Positions 15,247 through 63,797 of a stretch of 64,000 bases of DNA are shown one piece after another. The translations under genes and the position numbers were made by a program. Each line of letters opens with the position of its first letter. The stretch's first letter is position 1. Source of the stretch: Eucommia ulmoides (Eukaryota; Streptophyta; Magnoliopsida; Garryales; Eucommiaceae); assembly GCA_016647705.1 (NCBI GenBank), contig CM028328.1, positions 38,168,501 through 38,232,500 of the forward strand, given 5' to 3'. The notes beneath the pieces are model-generated. The model was not told the DNA's origin. It ran no database searches and saw nothing but the letters and a program-made list of their open reading frames with translations.

Positions 15247-15248
<2 letters not shown>

Positions 15249-22631: not shown

Positions 22632-22706
22632 ATGTTTTGGTCAATTTCTGATTGGTACGCAGCGGAGCTGGGCGTCGGCGAAGAGGGACTTTTCAGCTAT
22701 GTTTGA
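22632..22706 (+). CDS. Upstream ORF 2, overlapping the LNK2 start codon (24 codons)
   Basis: Starts at ATG 22632 and ends at TGA 22704-22706, overlapping the main ATG (22699) in another frame. The peptide begins MFWSISDWYAAELGVGEEG. Ribosomes translating it would pass the main start, so leaky scanning would be needed for LNK2. Whether the peptide is conserved cannot be judged here. Confidence 0.45.
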   Translation: MFWSISDWYAAELGVGEEGLFSYV

Positions 22707-22722
22707 TTGGAACGACGAAGAG
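22699..22722 (+). CDS. LNK2: LNK2 exon 1 coding part (MFDWNDEE)
   Basis: ATG TTT GAT TGG AAC GAC GAA GAG followed by donor GTCAGT. The eight residues are the LNK2 N-terminus and continue exactly into exon 2 (LANIIWGE), although exon 2 lies 12.5 kb away. Too short to be seen as an ORF alone; the start is fixed by the family sequence. Confidence 0.9.
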
Positions 22723-25700
22723 GTCAGTAGGTTCCTTGTATTCTTCTCTTTCTCTCTCTCTCTGACTGAATTCATGAAGAAATGAAACTACTCTGTTCAA
22801 ATTTGATATTTTCTTGGCCTCTTTACTAAAATTTTCCCGGAATGAAGTGTTTTACGTAATTCTAGTGTTTTTCCTTTCTACGGGTTCATGTTTGTTAGGC
22901 TTCTTTAGATTTTCATATCTTTTTGTTAACCAGCAGACAATCTATTTTACTTTCCTGTTGCTATACTTTCTTGGCAACAAACTGAATATCTGATACTCTA
23001 CTTTTCTTGGTTCGCTAAGTGCTAAATTAGAATTCTTATGGATTACAATCGGCTAGGGATAACAGTTCTTCTGGGCATTAATTATTTTCATAACTAGAGT
23101 TCATAAGCGATTGCAGTGGTCCGAGGTTTTCACCTGGGTCGGTAGCAACTAATGATTGTCATCCACGCAACAAAAATTAATTGTAGGCACATGTTGGTGT
23201 CTAAATTTGGTTAACAACCCAGTTGGTTTGGTCAGCATGCAGTCCTCAGTATGGAGTTCATTGTTCTTTGGTCCTCGGTCAACAATTTTAAAATCTGAGC
23301 TCGTACCTACACAAAGATCCACTGGGGTGTGTTCAACGGAGTTTCCCAGCATGAGAGTAAGAGTTCGGGAGAAAAAGACAATTATATGCTTTAAGTAAGT
23401 AGTTAAGCGTTACGTGGGGCATTGAATGCCAGGTTATTTATAAGCGAGGAGCAAATTATTACTGTGAAATTAGGGTTCTGAGTGCGGTTCATTAGGATAA
23501 CTTAGCATGTGGCCAATAAGGAGGCGCATGAGGAGATTAGGCCATTGGTCTTTGTCTTTCGGTCCATCAGGAGGAGCCCATGGGTTGGCCTAAATGAATA
23601 GGAGAAAGAGCCCAGTCTGTAGAGTTGATGGAGCCTACTCTGGTAGCATAGGTGGTCGCTGCCCTGAGCTCGTTGGTCAGAAGATAGTCTAGAAACCTTA
23701 GTGGAGAACCCTTCAGCACTGGTCTCTGGGGCGGTGTTAGACAAAACGAGCTCGGTAAGACCAAGAATGGTCACAATGTGATCGACGCCATAAGGTTAGA
23801 GCTCGTCATGAAGGGCCATACGAGACCAGTACCAATATGTCGGTGCTCAGAAGAAAGTTCACAAAAAATAAGTGGGCTCCTGCACTTGGATCGACATTTG
23901 TTAGGAGAACCAAGCATGAGGTTGTTCTGGCTGCAGGTTGGTAAACGGAGAAGGTCACATCGGTAGGTGCCATGGGGTCACTCAGAGGATGAGGTGGACC
24001 TCGGCAGGGGTTATAATGCGACGTGTTGGTATCTTAGTGGAGGTTGGAGGTCGGGAGATTTTCCCCACATCAGCATATATACTGTCTTGGGCCTTTCCAC
24101 AAAATGGGATTGTAAAAACCTTTAGGTAGCGTTTGTTAGCAAGGAATTAAGTCTCGGAATTGGAATTAGAAATGAATACATAATTTTTTACAGGGATAAT
24201 TAGTCAATAGTCTCAATTAGATAGTATAATCCATAATATATCCTATTTTAATTTTAAATTTAGTATTAATCCCTAAGGGTTGTGTTTGGGTTCGATAATT
24301 TAAGGGAGGATTTCATTTGGGCAAGAGATTTCACAAATTCTATTTAGGAAATTCTTTATTTGCGTATTATGAAGAGAAATTAATTTATGAAATCCATTCA
24401 TTTGTAAAATGGGAGAATAAAGAGGGATTTGCAAATCCTTTCAAAACATATATTTTTAAATCCTTTCATGAGGGAATTTGCTACTTTTTCAATTCCTCAT
24501 CCATTTCACTTCAATCCCATTTTTTATTTTGTAATTGCATGAATTTCAGAATTCTCTCTCTATATTATATAATGAAATTATATTTGTAAAATAGGTATAA
24601 AAATCATTACTATGTATAATTAAAGCTATATTATTAAAATAGGTATAAAAATTATATTATTAAAATTAATTAATAAATTACTAAATAAAAAGTATATTAT
24701 GAGATATATTTTCTCATTTTTTATTATAAAAATTTAATAGATTTCAAAATTCTGTGTACAAATACTGGTTTATTCAAATAAGGAAATTATGAAATTACAC
24801 AATCAAATTCTTCATCTAAAAAACTTGTCCAAATAAGGAATTTGTAGATGATGGGATTTCAAAATTTAATTTTGAAATCCCATCATTTATAAATTCTATG
24901 GATTTATCAAATAATTTTGAAATCCCATCGTTTACAAATTTCATAAATTTATCAAATCCCTTACATAAACACAACCTAACTATGTTTTATCTTGTGTTTT
25001 AATCTCATGATCAATGTTCCCTTATATTTCCAATGTTTCCAATTATGGTTTACATCGTTGGCCACCAACGCCACAGTCTATTGCCACCTGCTGCCGGACC
25101 TCAAGCCTTCGGTCGTTAAATTCCGGCCACAGGCCGCCATAATTTTTTGGGCATCTTGTTGGGAGGTCCCACAAGTGGAAAAGACCATTTTTTTAGGACC
25201 ATCCCAAGGCAAAAAAAATGTCTTGGATGGTCCTCTTCAAAGTGATGTTTTCCACTCATGGGACTTTTCAAGGAATTTCCCTAATTTTTTTAGTTACATG
25301 TAACTATTTTTAATTACATGTAACTATTTTTTTTAATGTACTTTTTGGTTACATTTTAATGTATTTTTTAGTTACATTCACGTAATTTTCTAGACCGATA
25401 ACCGGAAAATTAGTTGTGTTACTAAAAAGTATATTAAAAATATTAGTAAAAAATTAGTTGAATTTAACTAAAATGTTAGCGTCAATCGAGGACCGGAGTT
25501 TCGACGAAAGGCGGTCGGCTGTGGCTGGAATTCGACATTCGGAGTATGGTGGCAAGCGATGGTGGTGCGGCAGATGGTGATGCGATCCTAATTGAAACAT
25601 TAGTGCTTCCATGAACTCTAATAGATGGGACTAAAATTTAAGTACTTATTTGGTTTTAGAGTTTTTATTAATTTGTTATCATTTTTAGGATTTCCCGCCA

Positions 25701-28700
25701 ACTAGCCCTTTTTATGTTTTGCGTGTTCATTTCTAATTCCAATTCCACAACTCCAATTATACGAGACCAAAAAATGCTGCAAGAGCTTCCAACCCAAAAT
25801 AATAAATAATTTGGTAGTGGAGTAGTCCTTTAAATTAATATGTTAGTTTGGAAGTCTCACGGTTGTGGTGGATTGCAACAAAAACAAATGTTATATGTGT
25901 ATACTATGTGTTTTATTTTCTAGATTTACCTAGTAAGTGGGTATATTTTAAATGGAAGGTCAAGCGAAAAAGATGAAAATAGTGTAGATAATTTAGGTGG
26001 ATAGCACTAAGATATATAAGTTACCAAAACTTCCATCGTCTCATTCCTTTTAATCATCATTAATAGTTAAAATATTTTCAACTTAATATCCAAAGTTCTA
26101 CAACAATATAATATGTTATGGAATAATATAGAAATACATTTTATTAATTAATACATAAGATTGTAATTTTACAGAAAAAGCCGCTAAATTATACAAATCA
26201 GGATTGATTATAGGGCTTATATCCAACAATCTCCCACTGGCACTATAGGCTATAGCCAATCGGTACAATATCTAATACTCATCCTTTCGAGATACCCATC
26301 TAATTGCTGTAAAGTTATCATGTTAATGAGTGGATTTGTTATGTTATCTGCCGTGTCTACTCTCATAATGTCAATATCATTTTTTCCGATGATCTCTCGA
26401 ATAAAATGGAAGCGTTACTCTATGTGTTTGGATTTTTGATGAGATTTGGGTTCCCTTACTTGAGCTGTAGCTTCATTGTTGTCACAATACAAAGGTATCT
26501 GGTTTCAATGGTTGGAAACACGTCAAGTTTAGCGATGAACTTCTTTATCTAGACACCCTCCTTAGTTGTATCGAATGCAACAATGTACCCAACCTCAATA
26601 GTGGAATTTGTAGTTGTAGTTTGCTTACAACTCCTGCCAACGACCTCACCATTTGGGATAAAGACATATCCTGAAGTTGACTTTTGGTTATCCACGTCGA
26701 ATTGAAAATTCGAATTGGTGTAACTGTCAACCTATGGTTCCCCTTCTCCCATGTACCAGAATTTTATCCTTAGTTCTTCTCAAGCACTTGAAGATGCACG
26801 ACCTTTCAATTTTCCAAACCTGGATCCGTCTGATTTCTGCTGGCCAATCCTACAACATAACTGATATCGTGTCTAGTACATAGCATAACAAGCATGGGAT
26901 TTCCAATTGTGAAGATATATAGAATTCTACTCATCGTATCCTTCTCCTGGCGGGTGTAGGGACTCATTTTCGAGAGAGTTGAATTTCATGTTGGACCAGG
27001 AGAAATCCCTTCTTGGAATTCATCATGTTGAATTGCTTCAGCACCTTATTTATGCAACCGAAGTAGGATAATCCTAGTATCCACTTAGATCTATCTCTAT
27101 AGATCTTTGTACCCAATTTATAGGACGTTTTTCCTAGATCCTTCGTGGAGAAAGTTTTAGGAAGTCACACTTTAGTTGATGACATCATCTTTATATAATT
27201 TCCAATTGGTAGGATATCATTGACATACAACACCAGGAAGCTCACTGCTTGTCCATCCACTCTCTCTTATGCACATGGATCATCCATATTTTGGAGGTGA
27301 CCAAAAGATTTGGCTGCCTCACCAAAACGGATTTCTAACTTGTAGAAGTTTGCTTAATTCCATAAATATATTTGTGCAACTTGCATACCTTCTAGCTTTC
27401 TCCTTCGGCTATGAAACTCTCTGGTTGACGCATATAAATCTCTTCTTCTATGTTTTCATTGGAGAAAACAGGCTTGAGATCCATCTGCCACATTTCATAG
27501 TCGTGGGGACTCGACAATAGCCAATAAGATCCTAATGGACTTTAACATGGCGATCGGTAAAAAGGTCTCCTCATGGTCAACACCTCGACGCTTATATCCT
27601 TTCAGCGCTAGTCTTGCCCCGAACACTTCCAATTTACTATCTGAGTCTAGTTTCCTCTTGATGATCTATTTGCACCCAGTGAGAACGATTCCTTCAGGTG
27701 GATCTACAAGTGTATAGGCTCGGTTAGTGTACATTGAGTCTTTTTTGGATGTCATTATTATTTGCCACTTCTTTTTATAAATGTCCAACATGGCCTTTCC
27801 GTAGTTAGTGTGGTTGTTACCTCCCAATAGCAGTTGTAGTCCTTACTACTGCAGTAAGTTCCCTTATGGTTGTTCTAGTGTCTCACACAAAAAGACTTTG
27901 ATACAGTAAAATCGACAACATTTAACATTGTCAGTAGCATCACACTATCAAGTCTTGTCCTAGCGAGCCTACATGGATGAATAACTCTTACTACTTACTT
28001 TTAGGTAAGATCCAATTCTTATTTGGTCTCTAGTTTTCATCAGGCACTAGCCCACCTCCCTATTTACGTTATACCCACCTGGCAGGGTCCAAGCTAGCCT
28101 GAATGAGCCCCTCTCACTATTAGTAATTGAAGCCCATTAGTTAACTTTTTGCATGTTATCTAAAATAAAAGCAAGTCATTTGATTTCCCTGACACAACCT
28201 TATACTATCAAGTATTGGTTAATTTTAGCGCTTAAGGAACTTTATCCTAAACTTATTAACCCAGTGAAAGACCACGATGACACATATCTCATATATTTAT
28301 GTTTACAATTTAATATATGATTTGAGGAATTTTGGTTTTAGGTCTCATCTCTCAATTATGGATAAATTGCCGTTTGCTCCCTCTACTTTGCCTAATTATC
28401 ACTTTATCTCCTTCCACTTAAAAAATGTACACTTTACGTACTACTTTGAACAAGTGAGAAATTAACTTTTTCCGGTTAAATTAACAAAATATTATTAAAA
28501 ATGGATTAAATTAAATTTTCTATCCAATTCTTTTGATGAAATAGACGAAATTGTCTCTTTATTTTAATTTTGATTTAATTTTTTATTACAAATATTTTAA
28601 AAAATAATAAATTAAAATAAACGGTCAATTTCGTTTATTTCATCAAAAAAATTAGATGGAAAATTTAATTTAATTCATTTTTAAGAATATCGCGTTAAAT

Positions 28701-31700
28701 TAACTTTAATTATTTAATTTGTTTCTAACATGTGTCTCAAACACATGACGAATATTAATTGGCACATACAATTGGGCTTGGATGATCATGAACTTTTATT
28801 TCAATTCGACTCCATCATCTGAGCCGAATCTAGGTCTAATTAAGTTATGTTGTAATTAATCAAATTTTGAAGTTGATTCATCTCATGAATCTTCTTCTCC
28901 GTGTTTTTATCAACTCTTGGTCTCCATCGCTTCATGCTCCTTTGGGCTCTTATTTTTTTATCTTCGTTGGTATCCTGTTTGTCTTCTTAAATTACAACCA
29001 AAATTATAACAAAAGAAGGGGATACATTTGAAAGGAGAAATGGTTATCGAGAGGGAGGAAAATGCAACAAAATAAAATGAGGCTTGACATGCAAGTCCTT
29101 GAAAAACTCTTCAATAATTAATTACTACCATGTTGGAATAGACCATCCAACTCCCATAATTAAAACCATTAAAAGTAATTTCATAAAGATAACCTCCTTA
29201 GTAGTAATTTGCGCGCTACTCGATTTTTCTATCTTTGTGATCACGAAAGAACCAATAGGGCATGGATTAAATTCAAAACCCTTAGCTCGATCATATGTAT
29301 ATGATTAATATTATAATTTATCTTGTGATTCCAATTGGAATCTTATCCCAATCATCACATTGCGCTGCTATGCCAGAAGTCTATTTAAATTACATCAAAT
29401 TTGATCACATAGGATACATCTTTACTAAGGCCGATAGATCTTATCTTATATACTCGAATATTCACATGATATATCCTATGAGCGTCTTTGTTTCGTGGTT
29501 AGAATACAAGTAACTCATCCATGTGACTACTCAATACCTAAAGCCTAATGATCATAAATATTATTACAACTCAGGTATTCTACTTTGACGTTAAGTAGAT
29601 TACCATGATGGAATTTCAAGGACGTTCATGTTCAACCCCTTAGTACGACTTAGTAAGTTCCCTTATGATTGTTCTAGTGTCTCACCCTAACGGTTTTGAG
29701 ATTTTTCATCTTCAAAGAGAAAATACCCCAAAAGCTAGTCTGTCTTAATCGTTAAGTATCAATTTAACAATTCTATATAACTATGAACATTTGGGATATT
29801 ATTTACCAAAATGTCTACAATCTGATTCCTTTTAATAAACATTAAAAGCTAAAACATTTTCAATTAATTATCTAAAGTATATAACTACAAATAATAAAGT
29901 ATAATACCAAAAATGTCATTTATAAGTAGTTAAGTACATACTTGAGATTATAATTTATAGAAAAAAACAACTAAAAAGAATAAATTGTATTGACTATAAG
30001 TCTTATCTCCTACACTCCCTTATATGGTGGTAGGAAAAAATTCTCTTTGTTTGATGATCTTCTTATGAAGATTAGATAAAAGATGGTAGGGTGGCTAGGG
30101 AAACTTCTTTGTAGTGGTGGGAGACTTATTTTATCGAAGTATGTTTTGCTGAGTATGACATTCTATTTGTTCATGTCAATTTCTACTTTTGTCTCAGTTT
30201 TTGGGGAAATTGAGAGAATGTTTGGTTGGGTTCTCTTCCGGAAAAGAAAAAGATGCATTGAAAGAGATATAAAAATCTTTGTCTCTACTAATGAGGGTGG
30301 TCTGGGGATTTGGGACTTCTAGGAGGTAATTTTGGCCTTTTAGATGAAGCTATGGTGGATATTTTGAGAAGGTTCAAGACTTTGGGCCCAGTTTGCAAAA
30401 GTAAGTATTGTGGAGATTGTCCTATAGCCAAGTGCGGAAAGTTTGCTCATCAAATTCATGTTTGGGGTGCTCTGCTTGAAGGGTATTTCTATGCTGGGGA
30501 TTATATTCAGTTTTGGGTAGCTGTTGGGCATTTATCCTTCCGGTGGGACACTTGGCTTACTTTAGTTCCACTGGTGATTTGTTGCTGGTAGATGCGAGAT
30601 CTTCCAATCTTCAAGTTAAAGGTGTTCGGTTGGCTAATGGAGAGTGGATTATGCAACTCATTCACACTCTTATTCCTACTGATTATGCGATTGAGCTGGA
30701 GGGTATACATGTTCTAAATGCTACTGACCAAGATGTTATAGTTTGGCAGCTTTTTAATCCGAGAAAGTTCTTTGTTAAATCTGGCTTTGAAGTTGTCAGG
30801 AAACATCTGGAAGCTCATCCTTCTTTGGGAATATTTGGCTCAAGTCCCTTCCTATAAAAATATCTATCTTTTTTTGGAGGCTCTTACACCACACTGTTCT
30901 TGTGAATGAGGTGATATATATAAAAAAAAAAAGTATGGCAACTTGCTCTAAGTGTAATTGTTGTTGTGTTCCTCAGATTGAGTTGTTGAATCATTTGCTT
31001 TCTCGAAAGGAGGTGGCTAAGAGTGTGGGCTCCCATTGGGGCGTATGAGTTGAATGGTGATGTGCTCGGTAGAGTGGTTAGTCTTGTGGAAGCATCATAG
31101 GTCTCTAAACCTTCAGAAACATCATTCCTTCCTTCCTTCTATTATTTGCTGGGAAATTTGAGAAATGCGAAATAAGGTCGGATTTGATGGAGCTCATCGG
31201 GATGTTCAACAAGTTATGTTTCACATCCATCAAACTATGGCTCGACTAGATTTCTCTTTGGTAAAAAAGAAGTCTAAGGTTTAGTTTCTTTTTTGGAATC
31301 CTCCTTTTGATAGATTGAAGTTGAATTTAGATAGAAGTTGTAGAGGAAATCCAGGATAAATTGGTGGCGGTAGTATTCTTCGAGATGACAATGGAATTTT
31401 AATTTTTGGGTGTTGTCAATTCTAGGGTTTGCCAAGACTAAGATATTGTTGATTGCACTTCAAGTTTGTGTTGATTATAATTGGGAACATGTGGATATTA
31501 TTATATGTAACGATCCGGTTTCCCAGGGCCGTCACTCGGTTTCTCGCTTTTTATTTTGATGGATAAATAGAAGTAAAAGACAAACCACTCCACCGCCATG
31601 CTTCCGTTGTGCCACTATGATAAAAATAATAATTATCCACTAACTGTCAATTGACATAGATTTTTATAAAAATTATAAATATATACCAATTCAAATTTCA

Positions 31701-34700
31701 ACGATTATATACAATCGACTCTTCCATAACAAAAAAATATAAAAAAATCCAAACCACTCGTTTCCGACAATTGTCCTGACAGCCTCAAAAGCCACAACAC
31801 TATCTGACTCTACCTAACGCCAGTAGTGGACTCATCTATACTTGGAGTATTTAAGACAAAATATTTTATCGGTGTACTGTCTTCATAATATAAAAACAAT
31901 TTATGGATGAAGTACATCTGTCAAAATCCATTTTCCAAAACAGAATAAAACCGCAATGATATTTTCCAAAACAAAATATGACCGCACTGAACAGTAACGA
32001 AATTCATAGATATTATCATCATATAGCAATTGAATATAAATCAACTAATCAAATCACTTAAATACCAAAAACATACTTCCCTACTAGCCATAGGATCGTT
32101 TCACCTCATGATTGGGACTTGCCCTCCTGTTAGGTTCTCATCATAACGTTCTGCAGAATATGCCTTCCTTTCGGGACCACATTATGACATTGTAGTATAA
32201 TAATAAATACCACTTTCCATACTTATTCATTTAATTGATCCATTTAACGTTATAAGGTAATTTATTTTAATAAATCTTTTATTTTTTACAATTTGGTACG
32301 AAATTATAATTTGATAATTTATCTAGAAGATAATACACTCACCTCAATATTTTCACTGCTACTAGGCTATCGTTGAAATACTGCCGTAATCGGCGTTGCC
32401 TGTGAACCTGGTTCATGAGGAGAGAGAGAGCAAAAAGAGAAAATGATAAATGAGAACACACTCCATATATAGAGAGAAAAATAGGCGGTGGAATCAAATC
32501 AACTTTTTTTTTTTCTCCCTTTCTCTTGGCTTGGCCATAAAAAGGCCACCTATTATTTTTTAAGTTCTTTGGTGGTATGCAAATGATAGACCACGTTTTT
32601 GTTTCCTTTTCCTTTTAACCTTTTTATTTTATTTCAAATCTCGCTTGATAAGGTTGAAATGATATTATGTTTAATTATATATATAACCCTTCATTAATTA
32701 ATTATACATATAACCCCAATAAAATTTATAAATATTTACTTAACCCTTAAAAATTTATAATAACATATTAGACCCGAATATTTTTTAAATATTCTAAATA
32801 CATTAAAAAAATATGTAAGTGCAAAAGTTGGGCCTTACAGACAATGTCCTGCTAGTTGTTATGGTTGGTGGGATTTCTTTGGTGCCGTGGAGGATGCTGT
32901 CTTTGATTAGGGATATCAGGAACTTGACCTCTCATATTTTTCCTTTATTACACTTTGACCCACCAACCTTTTTAAGTTGTTCGGCATTCCTAGCCATACT
33001 TTTTAAAGGACTACTTTAATTTCTCCATTTTACGTGCGCCATTAGATTCATATCAAAAGGTGGTCAGTGGAAATTAATTAATTGATTTTACGAATTAGTT
33101 AAATAATTAGAAATATTTCAACTTTCCAATGTAAAGAAACTATTCCCTTACGGCATTTCAACTAAGTTTGGTTGACGTCTACTAACATATTGTAGATGTA
33201 TCCAGTTGATACAAATTTTATGCTGAGAACTCTTAGTTGTATTACTACACTATTCAATCTCTCTATCATTGTAGTCCCGAAAGAATCAAAGGGTCTGAAT
33301 AAAGTCAAAACCCCTAGTTTAGTCATGTGTATAATATTGATAATATAATCCATCTTGTGATAACAAGTGATTACTGGTGGTTGGGCTCAACAACGAGGTA
33401 AGGGTTCTTTCAAATTTTTGAATTGTTGGTGCCAACATCATGAGTTTGTAAATATAGTAAGAGCCTTAGATTCAACCAACCTCGGGTACTCCATTCCAAA
33501 AGTGGGAAATTGAAAGGCCAAGTTGGTGTTGTTTGACTGGAGCTTTACTACTTTCGAGAAATTTTTTGTCCAGGTAAAGAAACTAGAGAAAAAGATGGTT
33601 GATATTGAAGTGCAAGCCGTTAGTGATTTGAATTTAGTCTCATGGCTCCAAGAGGCTAAAGCTTGGCTGCTTAAGCCGTAAATCTAGAGGAAGCTTTCAG
33701 GAAGCAAAAATCAAGAAGTCGCTTAGAGAAGGAGATAGGAACACAAAATACTTGCATACCTTTGTCAAATAGAAGCGAAAGAAGATGTTTATTGAGCAGC
33801 TGAAAAACGCCAGTGGTGAATGGATTCATCATGATGATGGTATCCAAGAAATACTGGTAAATCATTTCAAAGATTAACTTGGTATTAAAGTTGCGTTTGG
33901 AAAGTCTCATTTGTTTGTCTCCGATTGTTTTTTCTCTCTTCTGTGTTCCTGTGTTTTTTTCATTGCATCATGGGTGCGGTTGTACATGAGAGTGGGTGTT
34001 AGATCACACATCGAACTTTTGAGGCTTCCCGAAGTAGTCCATATATGAAAGGAGCTACTCCAATATGGTTTTAGGTTAGAATCTTCTAACAAAAATTACA
34101 CAAACTTATAAGCATGAGATCAGAACTGGGAGGGAAATGATACCTTAGGCAGCCAAACAATTAGAGTACTTGAAAATTCCTAATATCATGCCTGACAAAA
34201 AACCCATTAACGGCATTGGAAAGGTCTTCATGAACGATATCCTGAGAGCTGGTAGAACTTCCCACTAAATCCATCTCTACGAGCTGCACTGTCAGCACTT
34301 AAAGAAAACACTGCGTTTAATTTCCTCGTCAGGGATCATGCAAAGACTGTTGATGTCAGCAGCATAAGATGAGGTATAGGATCTAACCAACCATCAGCAT
34401 CCTCATTCCGAGAAAAAACATTCAATTGATTGGTGAAGGCCTGAACCACATGAGGAGATAAAGCATCATTCTCCACCCACTGCCTATCATCATCTTTCAA
34501 TTTGTGCAGGACTAATTTCTGTTTCTTCATAGCAACACATTTTATGGAAAAATTTGGTGTTAGCATCCCCTTCCTTTAACCATTTTATACATGCCTTCAG
34601 CTTCCAGTAGATTTCTTCCTGCTTAATTAACTCTGGTTGCTGCAGAACACAGCTGTTGCATCTCAAAATCACACCTGTACACTTCATCCTCAGCAAATTT

Positions 34701-52676: not shown

Positions 52677-52716
<40 letters not shown>

Positions 52717-55700
52717 TCGAACGTCAAGGAGCTGCGACGACCGGCGAGGAGATGCGAGCGACTGCGACGGCGATGGCGACGGCAAGGAGTTGTGTTCGGC
52801 GACGGCGACGGCGACGACGACGAGCTGTTAGCGTTCGGCGATGGATTTCCCAAGTTCGGTGACGCGCGAGAGCTTTTTAGTTTCAAAATCTGCGAAGGTA
52901 AGTTTTTTATTTATCTTCTTCTCAATTATATAGAGGATTTCAGTTAGCATTCCATTTGTTTTTTAGTTTTCAACTTTGAGTAAGGATTCCGTCTTGTTCT
53001 CACGGCCCGTATGCCTTTCTCTGATTCTGGAACAGCTGTAACGCCTGTTACAGGACCGATACGGTGTGAATCGTCCCTAGACTTGAGAATTGGCCCTGTA
53101 ACAGTATCGGGGGGGTCCTATTTCCGGTACGAATCGGCCGTTACGTAACGTAATGGCCGATATTTAAAACCTTGGTGACATTGATTGTTGCTATAACCTT
53201 CACCCTGAGTTGAAACCTCGGAACTCAGAATGTAGGAAATAAAAAAGAACACTAAGTACAAGTGCTATTGCTGATATCGCAACCGGTTCGGTAGATCTAC
53301 AACCCGCTCAACTGAATCTTACCCAATTTTAGGCCCAAATTGCCCAGCGTCACGCTTAGTTAACCAACTTGGCATCGTCTTCTGACCCCATGGCTATTCT
53401 TTCCTCGGGTACTCCTACTGCGCTTTATGATAAGTCTGGTCGTCTTACTTGGATTCTGAATTCTGGGGATAGTAATCACATTACTGGTGAACTCTCTACC
53501 TTTACATCCCATGTTTCGTCTATTGATCAATCTGTGTGTATTGCTGATATGATTTCAATCCATATTCATTTCTAGGAGATGCCTGCTTGTCTCCCAATAT
53601 CACCCTTCACTATGTTTACTATGTCCCTAAATTTGCGTATAATTTTCTATCTATTAGTCGCCTTACTAAGAATCTTAGTTGTGCCATTATTTTCTTACCT
53701 CACCATTGCTTCTTGCAGGACCTGATTTTGAGGAAGATTTTTGGCAAGGGATATAAACATGATGGACTTTACTACTTCGGGATTTCTCCACCTCTATACG
53801 TACCACTTTCTAGTATGCAAGCCTTTGTGCTACATGTTTTTGATCCTTTTATTTGTTCATTAAAAAATTTAGACTTATGGCATGCCCATCTAGGACATGC
53901 AAATTTTTAATATTTATGTTGGTTGTTTCCTTCTATTAATAAAGCTTGCACGGATTTTAAATTTCAATATGTGGTTTGTGAACTGTCTAAACACACTCGC
54001 ACTTCCTACATTCCTCGCTTGCATTGGGCATTTCAGGCCTTTGATCTCATTCACTCTGATATTTGGGGACCTTCCTTTGTTATGGCTATTTCCAAACTTT
54101 ACTACTATGTCACCTTCATTTATGATTATAGTCAGTGTACTTGGGTTTATTTGATGAAGCACAAATCAGAAGTCTGTACTCATTTTACCCACTTTCTTCA
54201 AATGATAAAAACCTATTACAAAACATTCGTGTGCAATTTCAGGTCAAATAACGGATGAGAATGCTTATCCGGTGACTTTTGAGCTGAGTTTAATAAGCAA
54301 GACATCATTCAACAACTTTCCTGTCCCTACACCCCTGAACAAAAAGGTATGGAGGAACGTGAAAATCGTCACATGATGTCTGTAGTTTGACGTCTTTTAC
54401 GGTGTATGAATGTTCACAAATCTTTTTGGCGCATGGTGGTTCTTATTGCTGCCTATTTCATTAGTCGCACCTCGAGTTGTGTCATTACAAGCTATAGAAA
54501 AAAAGGAGGGAATAATTCTATTATTCATTGATACAATTACAAGGGAGCAAACAACTTTAGATAGAAAAAAAATGACACACTGCTGCTAACCCTAGAATCT
54601 CATACAATCAATGAATTTTCTAATTTATTTAAATCACTACTTTCCTAATTTATTTAAATCTCTAATCAATCAAACCCTAACTACAAATAACCCTAATTTA
54701 CCGGCACTCCCCCTCAAGTTGGTGCGAAGATATTCATCATGCCCAACTTACTCACTTGAAGCTCGAAAGGCTGTCTCAACAGTCCTTTAGTTAAAACATC
54801 TGCAATTTGCTGTGTGGTGGGTACAAATGGAGTATAAATTATTGCTTCTTCAAACTTTTTTTTTTTATAAAGTGTCTATCAATCTCGACATGTTTCGTTC
54901 GTTCATGTGGAACTAGATTATGAGCAATTCTGATAGCCGCCTTGTTGTCACAATACAACTTCATAGGAAGACTTACTGGTTTTTTAAGTTCTTCCAGAAC
55001 CCGTTTTAACCAAAGAATCTTGCACACTCCCTGCGCCATTGATCTAAATTCCGCCTCAGCACTACTTCTAGCAACAACACTCTGCTTCTTGCTCCTCCAA
55101 GTGACTAAATTGCCCCATAGTAATGTACAGTCTCCCAATGTTGACCTTCTATCAATGATCGAACTTGCTCAATCAGTATCTGTATACACTTCAATCCCCC
55201 TCTTCTCATTTTTCTTGAAGAAGAGTCATTTTCCTGGTGTGTTTTTCAGATTAACGAAGAATTCGATACGCAGTTGCCAGATGTTTTTCGTACGGGGAAT
55301 GCATAAATTGACTTACCATGCTCACAACGAAAGCAATGTCAGGACGTGTATGTGACAAGTAGATCAATCTTCCAACCAGTCTTTGGTATCTTCCCGTGTC
55401 TATTGGAACGCTATCTTTTATATCTCCAAGTTTAGCATTAGCTTCTATTGGAGTGTCAGAAGGTGTGCAACCACTCATTCCAGTTTCTTCAAGAGATCTA
55501 GAATATACTTTCGCTGCAAAACTACAATGCCCTTTTTTGACTTTGCCACTTCCATTCCTAGAAAATACTTTAGTTGACCCAAATCTTTAATCTCAAGTTC
55601 CTTGAGTAGGCTCTGCTTCAATCTGCTCATCCCTTTTAAATTGTCACCAGTCAGAATTATATCATCCACATAGACAATTAAGACAAAGACCTTGTCTTTG

Positions 55701-58700
55701 ATAGATTTCTTTATGAAGAGAGTATGATCAGATTGTCCTCGTGTATATTCTTGGCTCTTAACAAACTTTGTAAATCTCTCAAACCAAGCTCTAGGAGACT
55801 GTTTAAGACTATATAGAGACTTCTTTAGTTTACATACTTTACTTCCAAACTTCTCAATAAAGCCAGGTGGAGGCTCCATATAGACTTCCTCCTCTAAGTC
55901 TCCATTCAAAAAAGCATTCTTCACATCCAGCTGATTCAAAGGTCAATCAAGATTAGTAGCAACAGACAAGAGTACCCGAACTGTATTTAGCTTCGCCATT
56001 GGTGAAAAAGTCTCAGAGTAGTCCACTCCATATGCCTGAGTGAACCCTTTAGTTACAAGACGAGCCTTGTATCTTTCCAAAGATCCATTTGAGTTGTCCT
56101 TCACGGTAAATACCCATTTGCAGCCAACAACTGTTTTCCTATTTGACAGATTCACTTTCTCCCAAGTAGCCTTCTTCTCCAGAGCTCTCATCTCCTCAAA
56201 AATTACTTCTTTCCGCTCAGGAACATTTAGAGCCTCCTGGACACTATTAGGAATGACCACACTAGACAGTTGTGAAATAAATGCACAATATGAAGATGAA
56301 ATATTTTTTGTAAGATACAAAATTTGACGAAGGATGTTTAGTACAAGACATAACACCTTTCCTAAGAGCAATAGGAAGATCAAGCTGATTAGAAGAATTC
56401 GACTTAGAATTACTTGGAGGAATCTTTGACGAGTTATCATGAATTTCATGATCCAACTGCTGATTAGATTCTTGGTAGTGCTGTGAGACAGTGCCTTTTT
56501 TTTTTTGCTAGATACTCCTTTGAATATACAAGACCTTTATACCGTTTTGCACGCATCTCTGTTGTTTCAGTATTTTGATTCTGAGATGGCATTACCAAAT
56601 GTCGTTCATTGGTAAGTTCAATATTTTCAAGATTTAATTCATTTGTTTCCCCAAATTTTGTTTTTCCCATATCATTCTCTTTCGGTAACTGTTTGTGAGA
56701 AACATCATCATGAACGAACTCAAAAATTGAACCATCTAAAAAATCATCTTCACTAGTGCTCACCCCATGACGATAGGAATTGCTGTAGTAGGATTGTCCT
56801 TCAAAAAATGTGACATCCATAGACATGAACATTTTTTTGGAAACAGGATCAAAACATTTACAACCTCTTTGATTTGTAGGATAGCCTAAAAAAATACATT
56901 TATGTGTCTTTGGATCAAGCTTAGAATGTTTAGGATCATGATTATGGACAAAGACAACACTTCCAAAATTTTTTAAGGGAATATTTGTTATTAGCCGAGT
57001 AGTGGGAAAACATTCGGTGAAAAGCTTTATTGGTGTTTTAAAGTTCAAAATTCTCGTGGGCAGCTTATTAATCAAATAAGTGGCTATTAAAATAGTTTCT
57101 CCTCAAAGATACTGAGGAACCTTAGTTTGAAAAACTTATAGCTCTAGCAACTTCGAGGAGATGTCTGTTTTTTCTTTCAGCCACCCCGTTTTGTTGAGGT
57201 GTATTATTACAAGAGCTTTGGTGAACAATCCATTTTTCGGTAAAAACATTCCCTAACATAGCGTTAAAAAATTCCTTTCCATTATCACTTCGAATTTTTT
57301 TAATCTGAGTCTTAAATTGTGTTCGAACCACATTATAAAATTTTTTAAACACAATCTCAACATCAGATTTTTTATTTAAAAGAAACACTCAAGTGACTCT
57401 AGTATGATCATCAATGAAAGTAACAAACTAGCGTTTTCCAGAAAAAGTTGGCACTCTAAAAGGACCCCAAATATCACTATGAATTATGGTAAATGGTTTT
57501 GATTTTTTATATGGTTGAGATGGAAAAACAACTCGATGATATTTTGCTAATTCGCAAGATTCACACCGAAAAACATAAATTTTTTTATTCATGAATAACT
57601 TGGGAAACAAATGTTTTAAACATTGAAAATTTGGATGTCCTAATCGATAATGCCGTAACATAATCTTATTGTCACTAGACACAGAAATAGAATTGAAACA
57701 AGTCTGCTGATCTTACCTTCCAATGGTTGATCCATTATTAAAGAGGTAGAGGTCACCATCTTATTTAGCACCCCCAATCATCTTCTCTGAGGTTAAATCC
57801 TGAAATTCACAATGAGAAGACCAAAAATTGACTTGACAATTATGATCAAGAGTTAATTTACTGACATACATGAGATTATATGACAAATGAGGAACGTGCA
57901 AAACATTTTTAAGAATTAGAGAAGGGGAAATGGTAACTGTTCCTTTTCTAGCAACAGTAGCAAAAGAGCCATCGACAATTTTAACTTTTTGATTCTCTGC
58001 ACAAGGTGTATATGAAGAAAAAAATTGCGAAGTGCCGGACATATGATTGGCAGCACCTGAATCTAATATCCAGGAGCCATTAGACTTGGTACAAGCGATG
58101 GCGGCAGTGAAAGAGTTACCTGATTGTGCTAAAGTACAAGATGGGTTAGAATTTCCTATGAATTGTGACTAAAACATTTTATATAGGTGCTCTATCTGTT
58201 CCTTTGTAAACGGGAGTGACTCTGAGGAAGATTGCTGCCCTGGATCTTCCCTTGACTTGGTGTTCCAATTTGTCGGTTTCCTGTGCAGCTTCCAACAACT
58301 TTCCCAAGTATGCCACAACTTTCCACAATGGTCACACCAGGGCCTCTGCTTTCTTCCTCGCTTATCTCCTTCTGAATCTGCACCTCGGGCTACAAGAGCA
58401 GATCACTCATCATCTATTTTTGGTTTATTGATGTTCTTCAACATCACTTGCCGCAGTGCTTCTTCTCTACGTACTTCGGAAAAGACCTCCCTTATCGTTA
58501 GCAAGGGTTTCTTTCATAAAATACGTCCTCGAAGCTCATCGAGTTCTTTGTTGAAATCAGCCACGAACACAAATACCCAACCTAGCTCAATCTTCTTTTT
58601 GTACCGAGCACTATCATTTGAATTTTCCCATTGTTCATCTTCAAACATATCCAATTCCTGCCGAACCGCTGTCATATCATTATAGTAGGCTGTTGCCTCA

Positions 58701-61700
58701 CGATTGCCTTGCTGCATCTTCCACATTCGAGTGTTTAATTCGAACAATTGTGAATGATTGTTCAAATCTGAATAGATTTCCCGAACTGCTTCCCAGATAT
58801 TGCGAGCCGTCGGCAGGAACAAATAGGGCTTTCTAACAATTGGTTCCATGGAATTGATCAACCAGGCAATCACCATTGAGTTTTCCAAACACCACTGCCT
58901 ATATCTCGGATCATCGGTGGCTGGCGGTTTCATTTTGCCATTCAAGTGCCCGAGTTTCCCTTTGTTGTGGATCACTAACCGCACGATTGAGACCACTGAA
59001 GGTAATTCTTTCCATTCAATTTGTGTCTGATAATTTGAAGAAAATTTTCAGAAAAGGAGGTAGCCAAAAGCGGTTGCTGCAAGGAGACAACAAAAAGCAG
59101 TAGTTGTGGAGCTCCCCTCGACGACATTGCCGAAAGCGGCGGCTGTGAACCCCCCGACGACATTGCCGAAAGCGGCGGCTGCGAACCCCCGGACGACATT
59201 GTCTCGCTGTTGGCATCCGACGAGGCTGAGTTGGAGCCAACCATGGTAGCCTTGAAATTCATGATTGAACCCTAGGGCTCTGATGTCATATAGAAAGAAA
59301 GGGGAGAATAATTCTATTATTCATCGATACAATTACAAGGGAACAAACAACTTTAAATAGGAAAAGAATGACACACGACCGCTAACCCTAGAATCTCTTA
59401 CAGTCAATGAATTTCCAAATTTATTCAAATCACTACTTTCCTAATTTATTCAAAACTCTAATCAATCAAACCCTAACAAAAAATAACCCTAATTTACCGA
59501 CACAGGCAAAGCCCCCCTTCAAATACTGCAATCTGCTAACACCCTTTTGCCTATCTTGCCCTGTGTCTTTGGCAGCATGTGTTTTGTCCATAGTCGGAGT
59601 CCTACTTGAATGAAGTTAGATGATAAATCTATCCGGTGTGTCTTTCTAGGCGATCCGGTCACTCGTCAGTATTTATCACTCTCTCGATGTTACGTTCCTT
59701 GGAACTTTCCCCTATTTTTTAGGTACTATAACTTCTCCACCCATCGAGGCAACCCCTACCGAGGATGATAGCTTACTTTCGTGCCCTATTCCTGTCTTTG
59801 ATATATCTTCACTGCCCACACCACACTTATCACTTGACCTCTCAACCGTGCCATTGCGAGTTTACTCTCGTCGTTCAGGTGCTTCCAATCCACTAACAGC
59901 ATGTTCTTTGGAATCAAGTGTATCTCCGATGTGGGATAACAAGTCACACTTGATTCCAACCCGAGGCTACGAAGTGGTTATCTAGTGTGCCTCCGTAATG
60001 GATCTAGTGTTCAAAATCCCCCTCCCCAACCATTTGTACAACCCCCCCCCCCCCCCCCCAAAAAAAAAAGTCACACTTGATTCCCAACACTAAATATTAC
60101 CAACCATTTGTACAACCCCCCCCCCCCCCCCAATCTCTTAGTTTTTCACTAAAACATTTTAATATATCTTTATCACATTGAATATTACCAAGTTTGTATT
60201 TTCTCTTCTCTATCTTCTCAAGTTTTTTATATCTCTTCTCTATTCGTAATTCTCAACTTGTGAGTGGAAACAATCGACTTCCCCATGTTGTTAATTTAAA
60301 GAAGTTCTGTCATGAAGCATTCATTGTGTCTTGGCTTTTACAGTTGGCTCCGCAAGTGTTTGGGAAGACCCTGGCATTCAACGCCCAGCCTAATTCTGTT
60401 GCAACTCCAACTGTAGCTGAGGACAAGGTAATTTTTTTTTTGCTCGTGTATCTATAAAAAAAGTTTGACCTTCATGAGCCCTGAACTGCCATTAACTGCG
60501 GATGTCCCTTTTCCCTTGAATTGTCTTATATATATATATATATATATTTTTTTTTTTTTCTTTTTTTCTTTTCTGTTTTTATGTTCTTTCATGTGTGGTA
60601 GTTGCTATCCTAGGCAAGTCATGGTGAAAAATCTAGACACGAGTCAATAATCAGATTGTTTCTAGTATTGCAAAAGTGGTATTTCTAGATAAAGAAAGAT
60701 ATGTGGGACTTAATTGTATGATAGTTTTCAAGCTCTCTAGCATTCTGCATATATTCCGCTGCTGCCTTCCTCTTTTTTTTTTCATTACTGTATCATTCTT
60801 CTTTTTGTTGTTGAACATCAAAGTGTTGCTCTAGTTGTTTTCATTGCACAGGTGAACAGGGGGAAAAAACAGTTAAAATGCCGGATAAAATCAGAACATG
60901 AAAGTGAAGCTATGCGCAGTGCCTGGGATCAATCTGCAAGCCATTATCAACAATTTGATGGCACATATCCAATGCCACTGTCTCAACCTTGTCCATCTCC
61001 AGTGCTTAGTCACCAAAAGGAGATCCAAGGACCTGAATCATTGGGATACAAACATTTCTGTAATCCACTTTTGGTGCCTTTTGGGTATGGAAGTATGGGA
61101 AATGCATATCCTTCTTTCCCAGTATTTTCAGTGTCTAATACTGGGGAAGGTAATCATCAACAGGTTTCTCCTAGTAATGAGGTTTCTCTTGGTAATTTAA
61201 ACCGTTTAAATAAATCACCAGATACTCAGATGAAACCTGTGAGCATGACTCCTCAGGAAAAAGTTGAGAAACTGAGGCGGCGGCAGCAAATGCAAGCAAT
61301 GCTTGCAATTCGGAAACAACAGCAGCAGTTCACTCATCATAATTCTTCTCCCGACTGTTCTGCTTCTCAGAAATGTACTCATGAAAACAAATTGCCGCTT
61401 AGAGGAGGGAATTTTGAGCTTGAAGGAATTCCAAGCACTCTTCCTCCCCTTGATACAATTTCACATATAGAAAAGGATGATGCCAGTACTGTCTCGATTG
61501 CAATTGATGATTGTTCAATAGAGGAGACACTCATTTATCAACTTCAAGATATTATTTCAAAGGTTCATTATATTTTTATCTATCATCTTTTACTGGTAGA
61601 ATACTAAGAAATTATTCGTACCAACTGTTACAGAAATCTTTTGTTGCAGTTGGACATCCGAATACGGCTTTGCATCAGGGATAGCTTGTTTCGATTGGCT

Positions 61701-61807
61701 CAAAGTGCAAGAGAAAGGCATTGTGACGGCAGTACAAGCAGTACCAGTAAGTCCAGCGGAGATGAACCTGAGGTCCATATGGAAGAAGCTATAGATAGTA
61801 ATAACAG
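22699..61807 (+). CDS. LNK2: LNK2, night light-inducible and clock-regulated coactivator; 7 exons visible, 3' end outside window
   Basis: Coding exons 22699-22722, 35243-35609, 35688-35817, 42575-42878, 60344-60427, 60852-61562 and 61650-61807 join in frame. Known LNK family blocks appear in order: N-terminal [23 protein letters not shown], acidic [40 protein letters not shown], the basic [20 protein letters not shown] region (about residues 429-448) and the C-terminal [32 protein letters not shown]1 starts differently (MSDL...), hence LNK2. By family, LNK proteins bind RVE8-type MYB factors in the nucleus and activate PRR5, TOC1 and ELF4. It has no DNA-binding domain. All exon borders are GT-AG. 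The terminal region expected after residue 592 is not seen between 61808 and 64000. The gene is unusual for its size, over 39 kb. Confidence 0.93.
23100..24115. repeat. GC-richer block in intron 1, possibly an LTR; family unknown
   Basis: Composition is clearly richer in G and C than the neighbours, with a TATA-like TATTTATAAG at about 23437. No coding domain was recognised in any frame. A solo LTR is one possibility but no TG...CA borders or target duplication could be fixed. Bases 22740-23100 hold nothing recognisable. Confidence 0.3.
24277..24976. mobile_element. Tourist-like (PIF/Harbinger) MITE, 700 bp
   Basis: Ends GGGTTGTGTTT and AAACACAACC, flanked by TAA on both sides (24274-24276, 24977-24979), the 3-bp target of PIF/Harbinger elements. 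Non-coding, AT-rich. A broken relative sits at 19146-19315. Confidence 0.75.
25062..25590. repeat. Imperfect inverted repeat block
   Basis: AATTCCGGCCACAGGCCGCC near 25118-25137 faces GGTCGGCTGTGGCTGGAATT near 25526-25545. Both sides also carry GCCACC/GGTGGC. It looks like a separate small transposon nested in 24125-25779. Confidence 0.4.
26010..28280 (-). mobile_element. Copia LTR retrotransposon remnant (3' LTR, RT, RNase H; LTR piece at 5' side)
   Basis: Reading right to left: an LTR-like piece (about 27855-28280), reverse transcriptase (about 27000-27850; [20 protein letters not shown] at its start), RNase H (about 26480-26730; KSTSGYVF-type region), a polypurine tract and a 3' LTR remnant ending at 26228 (TGTTGGATATAAGCCC on the - strand). 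Gag, protease and integrase are not seen. Heavily broken with many interruptions, so old. Its LTR belongs to the family also seen at 29040-30014, 33020-33375, 45186-47000 and 47990-48430. Bases 25780-26009 hold nothing recognisable. Confidence 0.7.
28474..28705. mobile_element. Foldback element: near-palindromic arms of about 95 bp
   Basis: Left arm 28474-28567 and right arm 28610-28705 are inverted copies at roughly 85% identity, with shared blocks such as GATTAAATTAAATTTTC, TTTTGATGAAATAGACGAAA and TTTATTTTAAT, separated by about 42 AT-rich bases. Non-coding; a MITE or foldback transposon. Bases 28281-28473 and 28706-29039 show no gene. Confidence 0.8.
29040..30014 (-). repeat. Copia LTR fragment (recurring family)
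   Basis: On the - strand it starts TGTAGGAGATAAGACTTATA at 30014, just after GGGAG, and matches the LTR at 26228 and the + strand copy at 45186 in block order, including CACTAGAACAA and ATTGGGATAAGATT. The left border was not fixed. Confidence 0.6.
30030..31505 (+). pseudogene. LINE fragment: RT C-terminus, zf-RVT, RNase H
   Basis: Shows the late RT block ([20 protein letters not shown]), GGLGIWDF, a zf-RVT region ([15 protein letters not shown]) and an RNase H-like domain ([15 protein letters not shown]) near 31315. Several in-frame stops, for example around 31282 and 31360, and frame changes break it. It was then split by the solo LTR at 31506; sequence after 32840 ([17 protein letters not shown]) continues the RNase H. 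Confidence 0.8.
31506..32839 (+). mobile_element. Solo LTR, 1.33 kb, inserted in the LINE RNase H
   Basis: Starts TGTAACGATCCGGTTTCCCA and ends GGGCCTTACA. The start resembles the - strand start of the 8886-9868 LTR, so one family. Flanking 5-mers (TTATA, GACAA) differ. LINE coding sequence on both sides fixes the borders. Confidence 0.75.
32840..33019 (+). pseudogene. LINE RNase H remainder
   Basis: Continues the RNase H reading from before the solo LTR, with [18 protein letters not shown] matching the end of plant LINE RNase H domains. Ends in a stop at 33017-33019. Confidence 0.65.
33020..33375 (-). repeat. Copia LTR fragment (recurring family)
   Basis: On the - strand, ATTATATTATCAATATTATA, GGGGTTTTGACTTTATTC and TTCGGGAC match 45930-45990, and the far end matches the TGAACCTAATGGGTCACA-type block of 46330-46390. 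Confidence 0.55.
33376..33900 (+). pseudogene. LINE fragment: endonuclease-to-RT linker
   Basis: The frame around 33690-33870 reads [17 protein letters not shown] and [20 protein letters not shown], the stretch just before the RT in plant L1-like LINEs. Broken by stops. Bases 33901-34129 carry nothing recognisable. Confidence 0.7.
34130..34830 (-). pseudogene. LINE fragment on the opposite strand
   Basis: - strand reading gives [47 protein letters not shown] and [20 protein letters not shown], the same linker region as at 33376-33900 but from another copy. At least one frame change near 34540. Bases 34831-35242 hold nothing recognisable apart from the exon 2 acceptor. Confidence 0.75.
35243..35609 (+). 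CDS. LNK2: LNK2 exon 2
   Basis: Acceptor TTATATTTCAG, then [20 protein letters not shown] and KKEWNQEG, followed by [20 protein letters not shown]. The donor is GTAGGT at 35610, or GTTGTA at 35607; both leave phase 1 and keep the frame, so the end is uncertain by three bases. Confidence 0.9.
35610..35687 (+). other. LNK2 intron 2, stop-free and divisible by three (exitron-like)
   Basis: 78 bp with GT...TTCTACAG ends. Read through, it keeps the exon 2-exon 3 frame open and would add about 26 residues including a hydrophobic run ([14 protein letters not shown]). Confidence 0.7.
35688..35817 (+). CDS. LNK2: LNK2 exon 3
   Basis: Acceptor TTTCTACAG; encodes [20 protein letters not shown] and then [20 protein letters not shown], the most recognisable LNK block. 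Donor GTAATG. Ends in phase 2, completed as Ser in exon 4. Confidence 0.95.
36069..36080. repeat. Left end of a MITE split by the hAT element
   Basis: TTGGGT here pairs with ACCCAA at 40807. Joined across the hAT insertion, the left end reads like the inverted copy of the right end. Confidence 0.4.
36801..39044 (-). pseudogene. hAT transposase (BED finger, RNase H-like core, hAT dimerisation), two nonsense codons
   Basis: One continuous frame of about 745 codons from ATG 39044. BED finger [10 protein letters not shown]...LTHANIQC; catalytic-type blocks [34 protein letters not shown] and [29 protein letters not shown]4413-like [21 protein letters not shown]-terminal dimerisation [20 protein letters not shown]. 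It is interrupted only by in-frame stops at 38031-38033 (after EGLK) and 37518-37520 (after AKGM). The N-terminal 30 residues are hydrophobic and may be intronic. By family it would bind the element ends in the nucleus and cut them. Confidence 0.92.
39267..39874 (-). repeat. Direct duplication (about 312 bp) in the transposase upstream region
   Basis: TAGTGTCTATGCAGTTGGTG recurs at about 39273 and 39586, and GGGAAGACGATCACTTGTAC at about 39440 and 39755. In addition, AATCGTGCCCTAATTT is repeated four times between 39309 and 39410. Confidence 0.85.
40196..40807. mobile_element. MITE with inverted ends, main part
   Basis: Left TCCTAAATGTACACCCCT and right AGGGGTGTACATTTAGAAG are inverted copies. 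Non-coding, with TC and CA microsatellites (40390-40465). The hAT element above inserted near its left end. Confidence 0.55.
40878..42092. mobile_element. Non-autonomous hAT element (CAAGG-end family), 1.2 kb
   Basis: Ends CAAGGTTTAAAATATC and GATTTAAAACCTTG, flanked by ATTCCTGG (40870-40877) and ATTCCTCG (42093-42100), a 7/8 target duplication. Both ends have many GTAACGG/CCGTTAC motifs like 11439-16100. No transposase. Bases 42101-42574 show no gene. Confidence 0.85.
42575..42878 (+). CDS. LNK2: LNK2 exon 4
   Basis: Acceptor ATATTTTGCAG; encodes [20 protein letters not shown] and [20 protein letters not shown], ending LLMKDK in phase 0 at donor GTAAGA. It follows the exon 3 block directly in LNK2 proteins. 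Confidence 0.93.
43222..43488 (+). pseudogene. atpB: Plastid DNA insertion: atpB fragment (NUPT)
   Basis: Reads [20 protein letters not shown], then [20 protein letters not shown] and [15 protein letters not shown], about 88 residues of chloroplast ATP synthase beta, without a start or the P-loop. A few residues differ from the usual plastid protein (PSVP for [16 protein letters not shown] for [12 protein letters not shown]), so it has been in the nucleus for some time. The frame is still open. It lies exactly between two TATATGTGTGTG-type microsatellite tracts inside LNK2 intron 4. Bases 42879-43221 show no gene. Confidence 0.93.
43500..44140 (-). pseudogene. LINE RNase H fragment
   Basis: - strand text includes [20 protein letters not shown] and FEYDNLLLV, the plant LINE RNase H domain, with stops and at least one frame change. 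Begins next to the microsatellite that follows the plastid insertion. Confidence 0.7.
44152..45000 (+). mobile_element. Copia-type element start: short LTR, PBS and leader
   Basis: LTR 44152-44309 (158 bp): starts TGTTAAAGGG, contains TATAAATAGAGG and ends TTTAACA. It is followed at once by TTGTATCAAGAGCAG, close to the Met-tRNA PBS. The downstream 700 bp are Pro/His/Ser-rich low-complexity text without a recognised gag. Fossil; the rest is missing. Confidence 0.6.
45070..45185 (-). repeat. PBS and LTR end of another Copia element
   Basis: - strand: LTR end ...CATTCCATCA, then AG, then TGGTATCAGAAGC (PBS). The LTR runs right from 45085 and is interrupted at 45186 by the next LTR. Confidence 0.5.
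45186..47040 (+). repeat. Copia LTR, recurring family, longest copy
   Basis: Starts TGTTGGATGAAACCC and shares successive blocks with the - strand copies at 26010-26228, 29040-30014, 33020-33375 and 47990-48430. Contains a perfect 20-bp tandem duplication (45641-45680) and a 122-bp tandem duplication (46138-46381). The end is unclear because an inverted copy of its terminal part follows (47080-47157). Confidence 0.6.
46138..46381 (+). repeat. Two-copy tandem duplication, about 122 bp
   Basis: GGACAATATTGGAATTGTTT (46141) and CGGGCAATATTGGAATCGTT (46264) begin two units that both run to TACAATGGAAAATA. Confidence 0.95.
46810..47146. repeat. Inverted repeat of LTR sequence, arms about 46 bp
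   Basis: Arm 46810-46855 (CTTCTAAAATCACGCCTCGG ... GTTGAAGCAC) faces arm 47100-47146 (GTGCTTCAAC ... GGCGTGATTTGAGAAG). Confidence 0.85.
47166..47842. mobile_element. Non-autonomous hAT element (CAAGG-end family), 0.68 kb
   Basis: Ends CAATGTTCTAAGTATTGGCT and GATTTATAACCTTG with subterminal CGTTACGTAA/CGTAACGG motifs as in 40878-42092. The 8-bp flanks do not match, so one side may be lost. Confidence 0.75.
47990..48430 (-). repeat. Copia LTR fragment (recurring family)
   Basis: - strand GTGACTCACAGTGGAG, TATGAACCTAATGGGTCACA and the CCCTGGACA block match 46090-46510. Bases 48431-49472 show no gene: AT-rich sequence with an 18-base G run (49097-49114) and a (GA)n run (49229-49250). Confidence 0.65.
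49473..50312. mobile_element. Non-autonomous hAT-type element, 840 bp, perfect 8-bp target duplication
   Basis: Starts TAGGGGTGAAAATCG and ends TTCTTTCACCCCTA, flanked by GCTCCATC at 49465-49472 and 50313-50320. Subterminal GGGTCGG/GGGCGG repeats resemble those of 36089-40187, the likely source family. Non-coding. Contains GGGGCGGGGCGGGGCGGG-type runs near 50191-50222. Confidence 0.93.
51962..53174. mobile_element. Non-autonomous hAT element (CAAGG-end family), 1.2 kb
   Basis: Ends CAAGGTTTTAAATCGCTG and GATATTTAAAACCTTG, with GTAACGG arrays. It interrupts the Copia gag. The 8-bp flanks GTCACCAC and GTGACATT agree only in part. Holds a (GA)n tract (52680-52712). No transposase. Confidence 0.88.
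54493..54706 (-). repeat. 3' LTR of the full-length Copia
   Basis: On the - strand TGCCGGTAAATTAGGG ... TTTCTATA. Same length as the right LTR. Confidence 0.88.
59289..59502 (-). repeat. 5' LTR of the full-length Copia
   Basis: On the - strand TGTCGGTAAATTAGGG ... TTTCTATA, then the PBS. Confidence 0.88.
59940..60135 (+). repeat. Interleaved short direct repeats with C runs before LNK2 exon 5
   Basis: AAGTCACACTTGATTCC occurs at 59941 and 60068; CCAACCATTTGTACAACCC at 60026 and 60100. Each of the latter leads into a C run (18 C at 60042-60059, 16 C at 60116-60131). Confidence 0.9.
60344..60427 (+). CDS. LNK2: LNK2 exon 5 (28 codons)
   Basis: Acceptor GGCTTTTACAG, donor GTAATT, both phase 0. 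Encodes [18 protein letters not shown] and ends VAEDK. The block is less conserved in the family, and support comes mainly from splice sites, frame and position. Confidence 0.78.
60428..60851 (+). other. LNK2 intron 5
   Basis: Contains a TA run and T run (60526-60570) and no element I recognise; one of the few LNK2 introns of normal size. Confidence 0.8.
60852..61562 (+). CDS. LNK2: LNK2 exon 6 (237 codons)
   Basis: Acceptor CATTGCACAG. Encodes [20 protein letters not shown], a Pro/Gln/Ser-rich middle with [40 protein letters not shown], and [15 protein letters not shown]. Donor after AAG is GTTCAT. This is the largest exon and holds the basic glutamine-rich region typical of the family. Confidence 0.95.
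61650..61807 (+). CDS. LNK2: LNK2 exon 7
   Basis: Acceptor TTTTGTTGCAG. Encodes [20 protein letters not shown] and then a Ser/Thr-rich stretch ending EEAIDSNN, phase 2, donor GTTTGT. Exons 6 and 7 together carry the C-terminal LNK signature. Confidence 0.95.
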
Positions 61808-62149
61808 GTTTGTGAAACGAATTGCTGTTGTCATAAATTATCACTAAAACTTCTCTTCCTCTCAAAAAGTCTCTGTTTATTTTACTTTTTTCCGTTTGGA
61901 TGAGTAATATCTGTAGAATCAGGGGCTCACCCATCTACACAAATTAAATCTGATGTGTATTGAGAGAGCCAGACAGACTCGAGAGTAATCTGGAAGGAGA
62001 ATCTGGGACGCATAGTCTTTTCCTACATTCAAATTTGCAAACTCAGAAGATAACTCATTGCTCCTATTTTCCCTCACGCTACTTGTTCCTTTCCCATCAA
62101 GCTAACCACATAGGACATAATGTGGCTGATCCCCAGCCATGCAAGTATA

Positions 62150-63741: not shown

Positions 63742-63797
63742 ACTTTTGGTATCAATTGCTATCTATCAAAGTAAAGCCTTTTGTCTAATGTTGGGCG

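Follow-up and report, generated by a model that had tools for sequence, protein, structure and literature searches.

The window analyzed here, a stretch of 64,000 nucleotides of the Eucommia ulmoides genome (C4:38168501-38232500), contains on its forward strand the first seven coding exons of a gene for LNK2, a clock coactivator. These exons sum to 1,778 nt and share one frame (Table 1). The original prediction had given them a total of less than 1.8 kb, with sizes of about 12.5, 6.8, and 17.5 kb for introns 1, 3, and 4, and its exon coordinates, clean splice sites, preserved frame, and intron sizes all proved right. The gene had also been described as longer than 39 kb; this long span is real but an underestimate, since the gene extends beyond the window. 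Because a splice donor closes exon 7 (61807), we fetched the downstream DNA (50 kb) for the last exon, which was located by its LNK C-terminal motifs 15.5 kb beyond the window end. A genome search placed it at the same locus. The full model comprises eight coding exons, 2,100 nt, and 699 amino acids, and measures 57,152 bp from its start codon to its stop codon (C4:38191199-38248350). All seven introns have GT-AG borders with agreeing phases, and the open frame continues to the end of exon 8. Introns 5, 6, and 7 measure 424, 87, and 17,721 bp, respectively.

Table 1. Exons, introns, and inserted elements of the Eucommia LNK2 gene (positions in the window unless stated otherwise)
Feature	Position	Strand	Remarks
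Exon 1	22699..22722	+	24 nt; start codon, MFDWNDEE
Intron 1	22723..35242	+	12,520 bp
Exon 2	35243..35609	+	rebuilt exon by exon
Intron 2	35610..35687	+	78 nt; in frame, stop-free, GT-AG
Exon 3	35688..35817	+	rebuilt exon by exon
Intron 3	35818..42574	+	6,757 bp; two DNA elements make up about 79%
hAT transposon, intron 3	36089..40187	-	4,099 bp; perfect 8-bp target-site duplication
1.2-kb element, intron 3	40877..42094	.	ends in common with 11433-16101
Exon 4	42575..42878	+	rebuilt exon by exon
Intron 4	42879..60343	+	17,465 bp
Plastid DNA insert, intron 4	43224..43493	+	270 bp; chloroplast atpB fragment (chain residues 72-162)
Candidate non-autonomous hAT-like element, intron 4	49473..50312	.	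840 bp; flanked by 8-bp repeats; ends TAGGGGTG with 3 mismatches in 14
Older Copia-type element, intron 4	50600..59825	+	matched piecewise; interrupted by two younger insertions
1.2-kb element, intron 4	51964..53178	.	same family as 40877-42094; nested in older Copia-type element
Second Copia element, intron 4	54489..59501	-	RVT_2 7.2e-41; nested in first Copia
Exon 5	60344..60427	+	rebuilt exon by exon
Exon 6	60852..61562	+	rebuilt exon by exon
Exon 7	61650..61807	+	carries conserved C-terminal motif
Intron 7, part within the window	61808..64000	+	extends beyond the window end
Exon 8	C4:38248029-38248350 (79529-79850 in extended window coordinates)	+	stop codon

The second intron is easily missed because the region reads as a single open frame of 210 codons. 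With it removed, the protein aligns without a gap at the junction to an Arabidopsis LNK2 reference sequence, all alignments to which are to be read as leads. An alternative donor at 35614 would break the frame and was discarded on inspection of the sequence. The intron numbering and exon total of the original prediction imply that this intron had already been recognized.

To judge the joined frame, we compared it with two kinds of random sets. Neither shuffling the bases within each exon nor concatenating randomly drawn intron segments of matching sizes produced a single stop-free set (0 of 20,000 in both cases). Single exons are less telling. Among random intron windows matched in length and phase, the proportion without a stop was 0 of 5,000 for exon 6 and 33 of 5,000 for exon 8, which is open across its 106 codons, while it reached 1,066 of 5,000 for exon 5 and 3,191 of 5,000 for exon 1. 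As windows of the latter size are so often open by chance, the case for the 24-nt first exon comes from its LNK start (MFDW..EE) and its splice donor.

The identification as LNK2 was supported by several comparisons. As a lead, the model is 34% identical to the Arabidopsis LNK2 reference over 654 aligned positions. The conserved blocks between the initial MFDW and the C terminus occur in an unchanged order, and the differences are the 57-kb span and substitutions within the last conserved motif. The N-terminal region of the model aligns to that same reference and also to an exon of an LNK1-like gene of the same genome (27% over 191 positions, E 1e-12). This gene, located on C7, is the one clear relative found and is compact, with a coding part of about 3.3 kb from the second exon on; separate LNK2 exons resemble it. 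The second intact copy named by the original prediction as a counter-possibility was not detected in a search of 946.67 Mb in 391 contigs, using as queries the DNA of exons 2 and 3 and the proteins of exons 1 to 3, exon 6, and exons 7 and 8. LNK3 and LNK4 were not detected in the genome searches either, which may reflect their limited sensitivity. Weak matches on C1 (E 0.056) and C3 (E 2.5) were rejected as LNK genes, as neither strand of the fetched loci contained the LNK C-terminal motif, which the same scan found in the LNK1-like loci used as a positive control.

At least 46, 79, 59, and 42% of introns 1, 3, 4, and 7, respectively, consist of recognized repeats and other inserted DNA, in agreement with the earlier claim of transposon-filled introns. 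These values are lower bounds because only top-ranking candidates are scored in the genome search; for intron 7, 9.9 of 17.7 kb were searched, and the content of intron 3 was judged from structure and self-comparison alone. In total, 16 repeat segments or insertions could be named in introns 1, 3, and 4 (eight, two, and six, respectively), short of the 20 or more insertions that had been proposed for them, and three more in intron 7. A discrete transposon insertion was recognizable by its ends or nesting at three sites, namely the 4.1-kb hAT element, the 1.2-kb element of intron 4, and the second Copia element; the remaining nameable segments comprise the plastid fragment, dispersed repeats whose ends are unmapped, and candidates that are suggestive only. 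Repeats in introns 1 and 7 are of the dispersed kind, and many-copy families occur in introns 1, 4, and 7. Older unrecognized repeats are likely, and the true number of insertions in introns 1, 3, and 4 may well be above 20. In intron 7, an old repeat (64153-71125 in extended coordinates) is split by a 2.5-kb repeat (64678-67178) that is at most 85% like its other copies.

The hAT transposon of intron 3 has a transposase frame broken into three pieces, and its Dimer_Tnp_hAT (5.2e-30), hAT-like_RNase-H (3.6e-11), and zf-BED (1.4e-4) domains were matched separately. The two 1.2-kb elements look like internally deleted relatives of a longer element upstream of LNK2 (11433-16101), in which zf-BED and DUF659 matches fell below their curated cutoffs. 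In intron 4, comparison with another genomic copy revealed the breakpoints at which the older Copia-type element, whose Pol_BBD remnant scored 20.2 bits against a curated cutoff of 27, was split by one of these DNA elements and by the oppositely oriented second Copia. The 215-nt LTRs of the latter are 90.2% alike and, at 7e-9 to 1.3e-8 substitutions per site per year, would date it to about 4 to 7.5 million years; a target-site duplication was sought around this element and not found. The fragment of chloroplast ATP synthase beta chain in the same intron (E 5.4e-48) has 14 further matches in the genome, 84 to 95% identical, and lies between two stretches of TATATGTGTG-type simple repeats. The assignment of the 840-bp candidate to a non-autonomous hAT-like element is suggestive only, as the same scan gave two more 8-bp hits with three mismatches (26546-30101 and 45399-46201) that may be due to chance.

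We also looked for other genes nested in the introns. Fifteen distinct open reading frames that lie in neither the 4.1-kb hAT nor the second Copia, chosen from 78 listed (some overlapping exons), were compared with Pfam (10), NCBIfam (6), or both (1), and the only two matches were the Pol_BBD remnant and the atpB fragment. Scanning the 64-kb window for tRNAs, and against Rfam at gathering scores, gave no match.

Since assemblies tend to fail at repeats, a gene spread out in this way could be imagined as a normal one whose exons were pushed apart by misjoined repeats. We regard such an artefact as extremely improbable, given that the 113.9 kb examined contain no N runs, that the exons are in order on a single strand with matching phases, and that the elements bear the marks of real insertions, namely nesting and a target-site duplication.

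To place the LNK2 introns within this genome, we used two Pfam families, Cpn60_TCP1 (67 matches) and Myosin_head (87 matches), which gave 26 loci of at least two pieces with 111 gaps between pieces, while 17 matches stood alone. The comparison is a rough one, in which a gap may contain several introns and spans refer to the domain part only. The matched parts had a median span of 5.2 kb and a maximum of 31 kb, exceeding 20 kb at 2 of the 26 loci; among the gaps, 8 of 111 were longer than 5 kb and 3 longer than 10 kb, the largest being 17.7 kb. LNK2 has three gaps longer than 10 kb and lies at the extreme of an otherwise familiar range, in which other genes also have long introns. The published haploid assembly (947.86 Mb, 17 chromosomes, 501 scaffolds) is reported to have a mean intron of 1,306 bp and a mean gene of 6,138 bp (PMC7603500).

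The contrast between a 57-kb LNK2 and the roughly 3.3-kb coding span of its LNK1-like relative could be taken to indicate a timing device, kept by selection, in which intron length delays the LNK2 mRNA relative to that of LNK1. However, length alone is no evidence of clock function because gaps of more than 5 kb are also found in chaperonin and myosin genes, and the inserted elements are a haphazard mix of families. Besides, RNA polymerase II moves at 1 to 4 kb/min, at which transcribing 57 kb would take about 14 to 57 min, about half an hour; this is small relative to a 24-h cycle and makes the delay idea weak. We consider selection for delay very unlikely. Premature transcript ends inside the introns would be a stronger possible effect than delay.

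Introns of this kind have been described elsewhere. According to a study of rice, intronic heterochromatin occurs in more than 10% of its genes, mostly with transposons and repeats, and OsIBM2 is required for proper mRNA from dozens of them; the same source describes transcripts that end early in heterochromatic introns of Arabidopsis ibm2 and organelle DNA inside the heterochromatic intron of Arabidopsis IBM1 (PMC7145194). Eucommia LNK2 resembles such IBM2/EDM2/ASI1 targets in its long transposon-filled introns and, as with IBM1, in the organelle insert of one of them. Such targets are marked by non-CG methylation and H3K9me2 over the intron and lose their 3' transcript in IBM2/EDM2/ASI1 mutants, traits that in Eucommia LNK2 are predicted. 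Introns of 1 to 20 kb and more, linked to repeats, are also reported from gymnosperms and other large plant genomes (PMC9364684), unlike which the Eucommia genome is that of an angiosperm, below 1 Gb and with a mean intron of 1.3 kb (PMC7603500). In tomato, the reported LNK2 change is the opposite one, a 7.1-kb deletion associated with slowing of the clock (PMC10181942, PMC8994279), whereas in Eucommia the gene has grown.

Beyond the complete frame, the intact splice-site dinucleotides, and the transposon content and nesting, all directly observed, we think it likely that this is the plant's LNK2, with intact coding exons and a single detected copy, in which four introns have grown to 7 to 18 kb by transposons and some plastid DNA, most probably without benefit, and from which full mRNA is obtained through IBM2-type machinery. 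The gene would be transcribed along its full 57 kb, and splicing would yield a normal mRNA. By analogy with the genes above, its transposon-rich introns would be heterochromatic, and full-length mRNA would need conserved machinery of the IBM2/EDM2/ASI1 type that stops transcripts from ending inside them. The LNK2 coactivator would then be made, as in other plants, from this long pre-mRNA, and the traits typical of LNK2 that it would be expected to share are morning-phased, light-induced expression and RVE8 coactivation.

At the C terminus, two blocks are candidates for the conserved R1 and R2 motifs. Through these two motifs LNKs are reported to bind RVE8 and MYB3 (PMC6356500, PMC10315267). 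The conserved block of exon 7 is intact. In exon 8, the DR..AHLLFHRP block reads DRTVACFLFHMP, and its core, ACFLFHMP, differs at three of eight residues from the AHLLFHRP shared by the LNK1-like gene and the Arabidopsis LNK2 reference. These substitutions may indicate weaker constraint, drift behind the 17.7-kb intron, or a harmless change of the lineage. A transcript ending in intron 4 would lack both motifs, and read-through past exon 7 into intron 7 would add 15 residues and then a stop, without the exon-8 end.

The substituted motif behind intron 7, the sense AATAAA signals in introns 7 (22) and 4 (18; both raw counts), and the compactness of the LNK1-like relative would fit a gene whose transcripts often end prematurely in the giant introns, with a mostly truncated or low LNK2 output, LNK1 carrying the function, and exon 8 drifting. 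We nevertheless judge this unlikely, as exon 8 is still open to its end, which few random windows of its length are, and the splice-site dinucleotides are intact throughout. Less probable still, intron 7 might partly uncouple exon 8, many transcripts ending there to give a coactivator without the R2-type motif, with exon 8 drifting and the heterochromatin state of the introns setting the amount of full-length product.

As intron growth by transposons, the LNK2 case is ordinary; the gene structure is of a known kind, of which this is a long example in a clock gene. Among the titles and abstract beginnings returned by a non-exhaustive literature search, none concerned LNK2 intron length. LNK1 and LNK2 products act together in Arabidopsis, and the compact LNK1-like gene and the 57-kb LNK2 form a natural pair in one genome, suited to testing whether transposon-filled introns alter the timing or completeness of clock transcripts. 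Finally, a raw motif scan for clock elements in the 2 kb upstream of LNK2 found no evening element and no AAAATATCT or AAAAATCT on either strand, and detected one GGGCCC-type site and two G-boxes (CACGTG) at 22370 and 22414, less than 330 bp upstream of the start codon.
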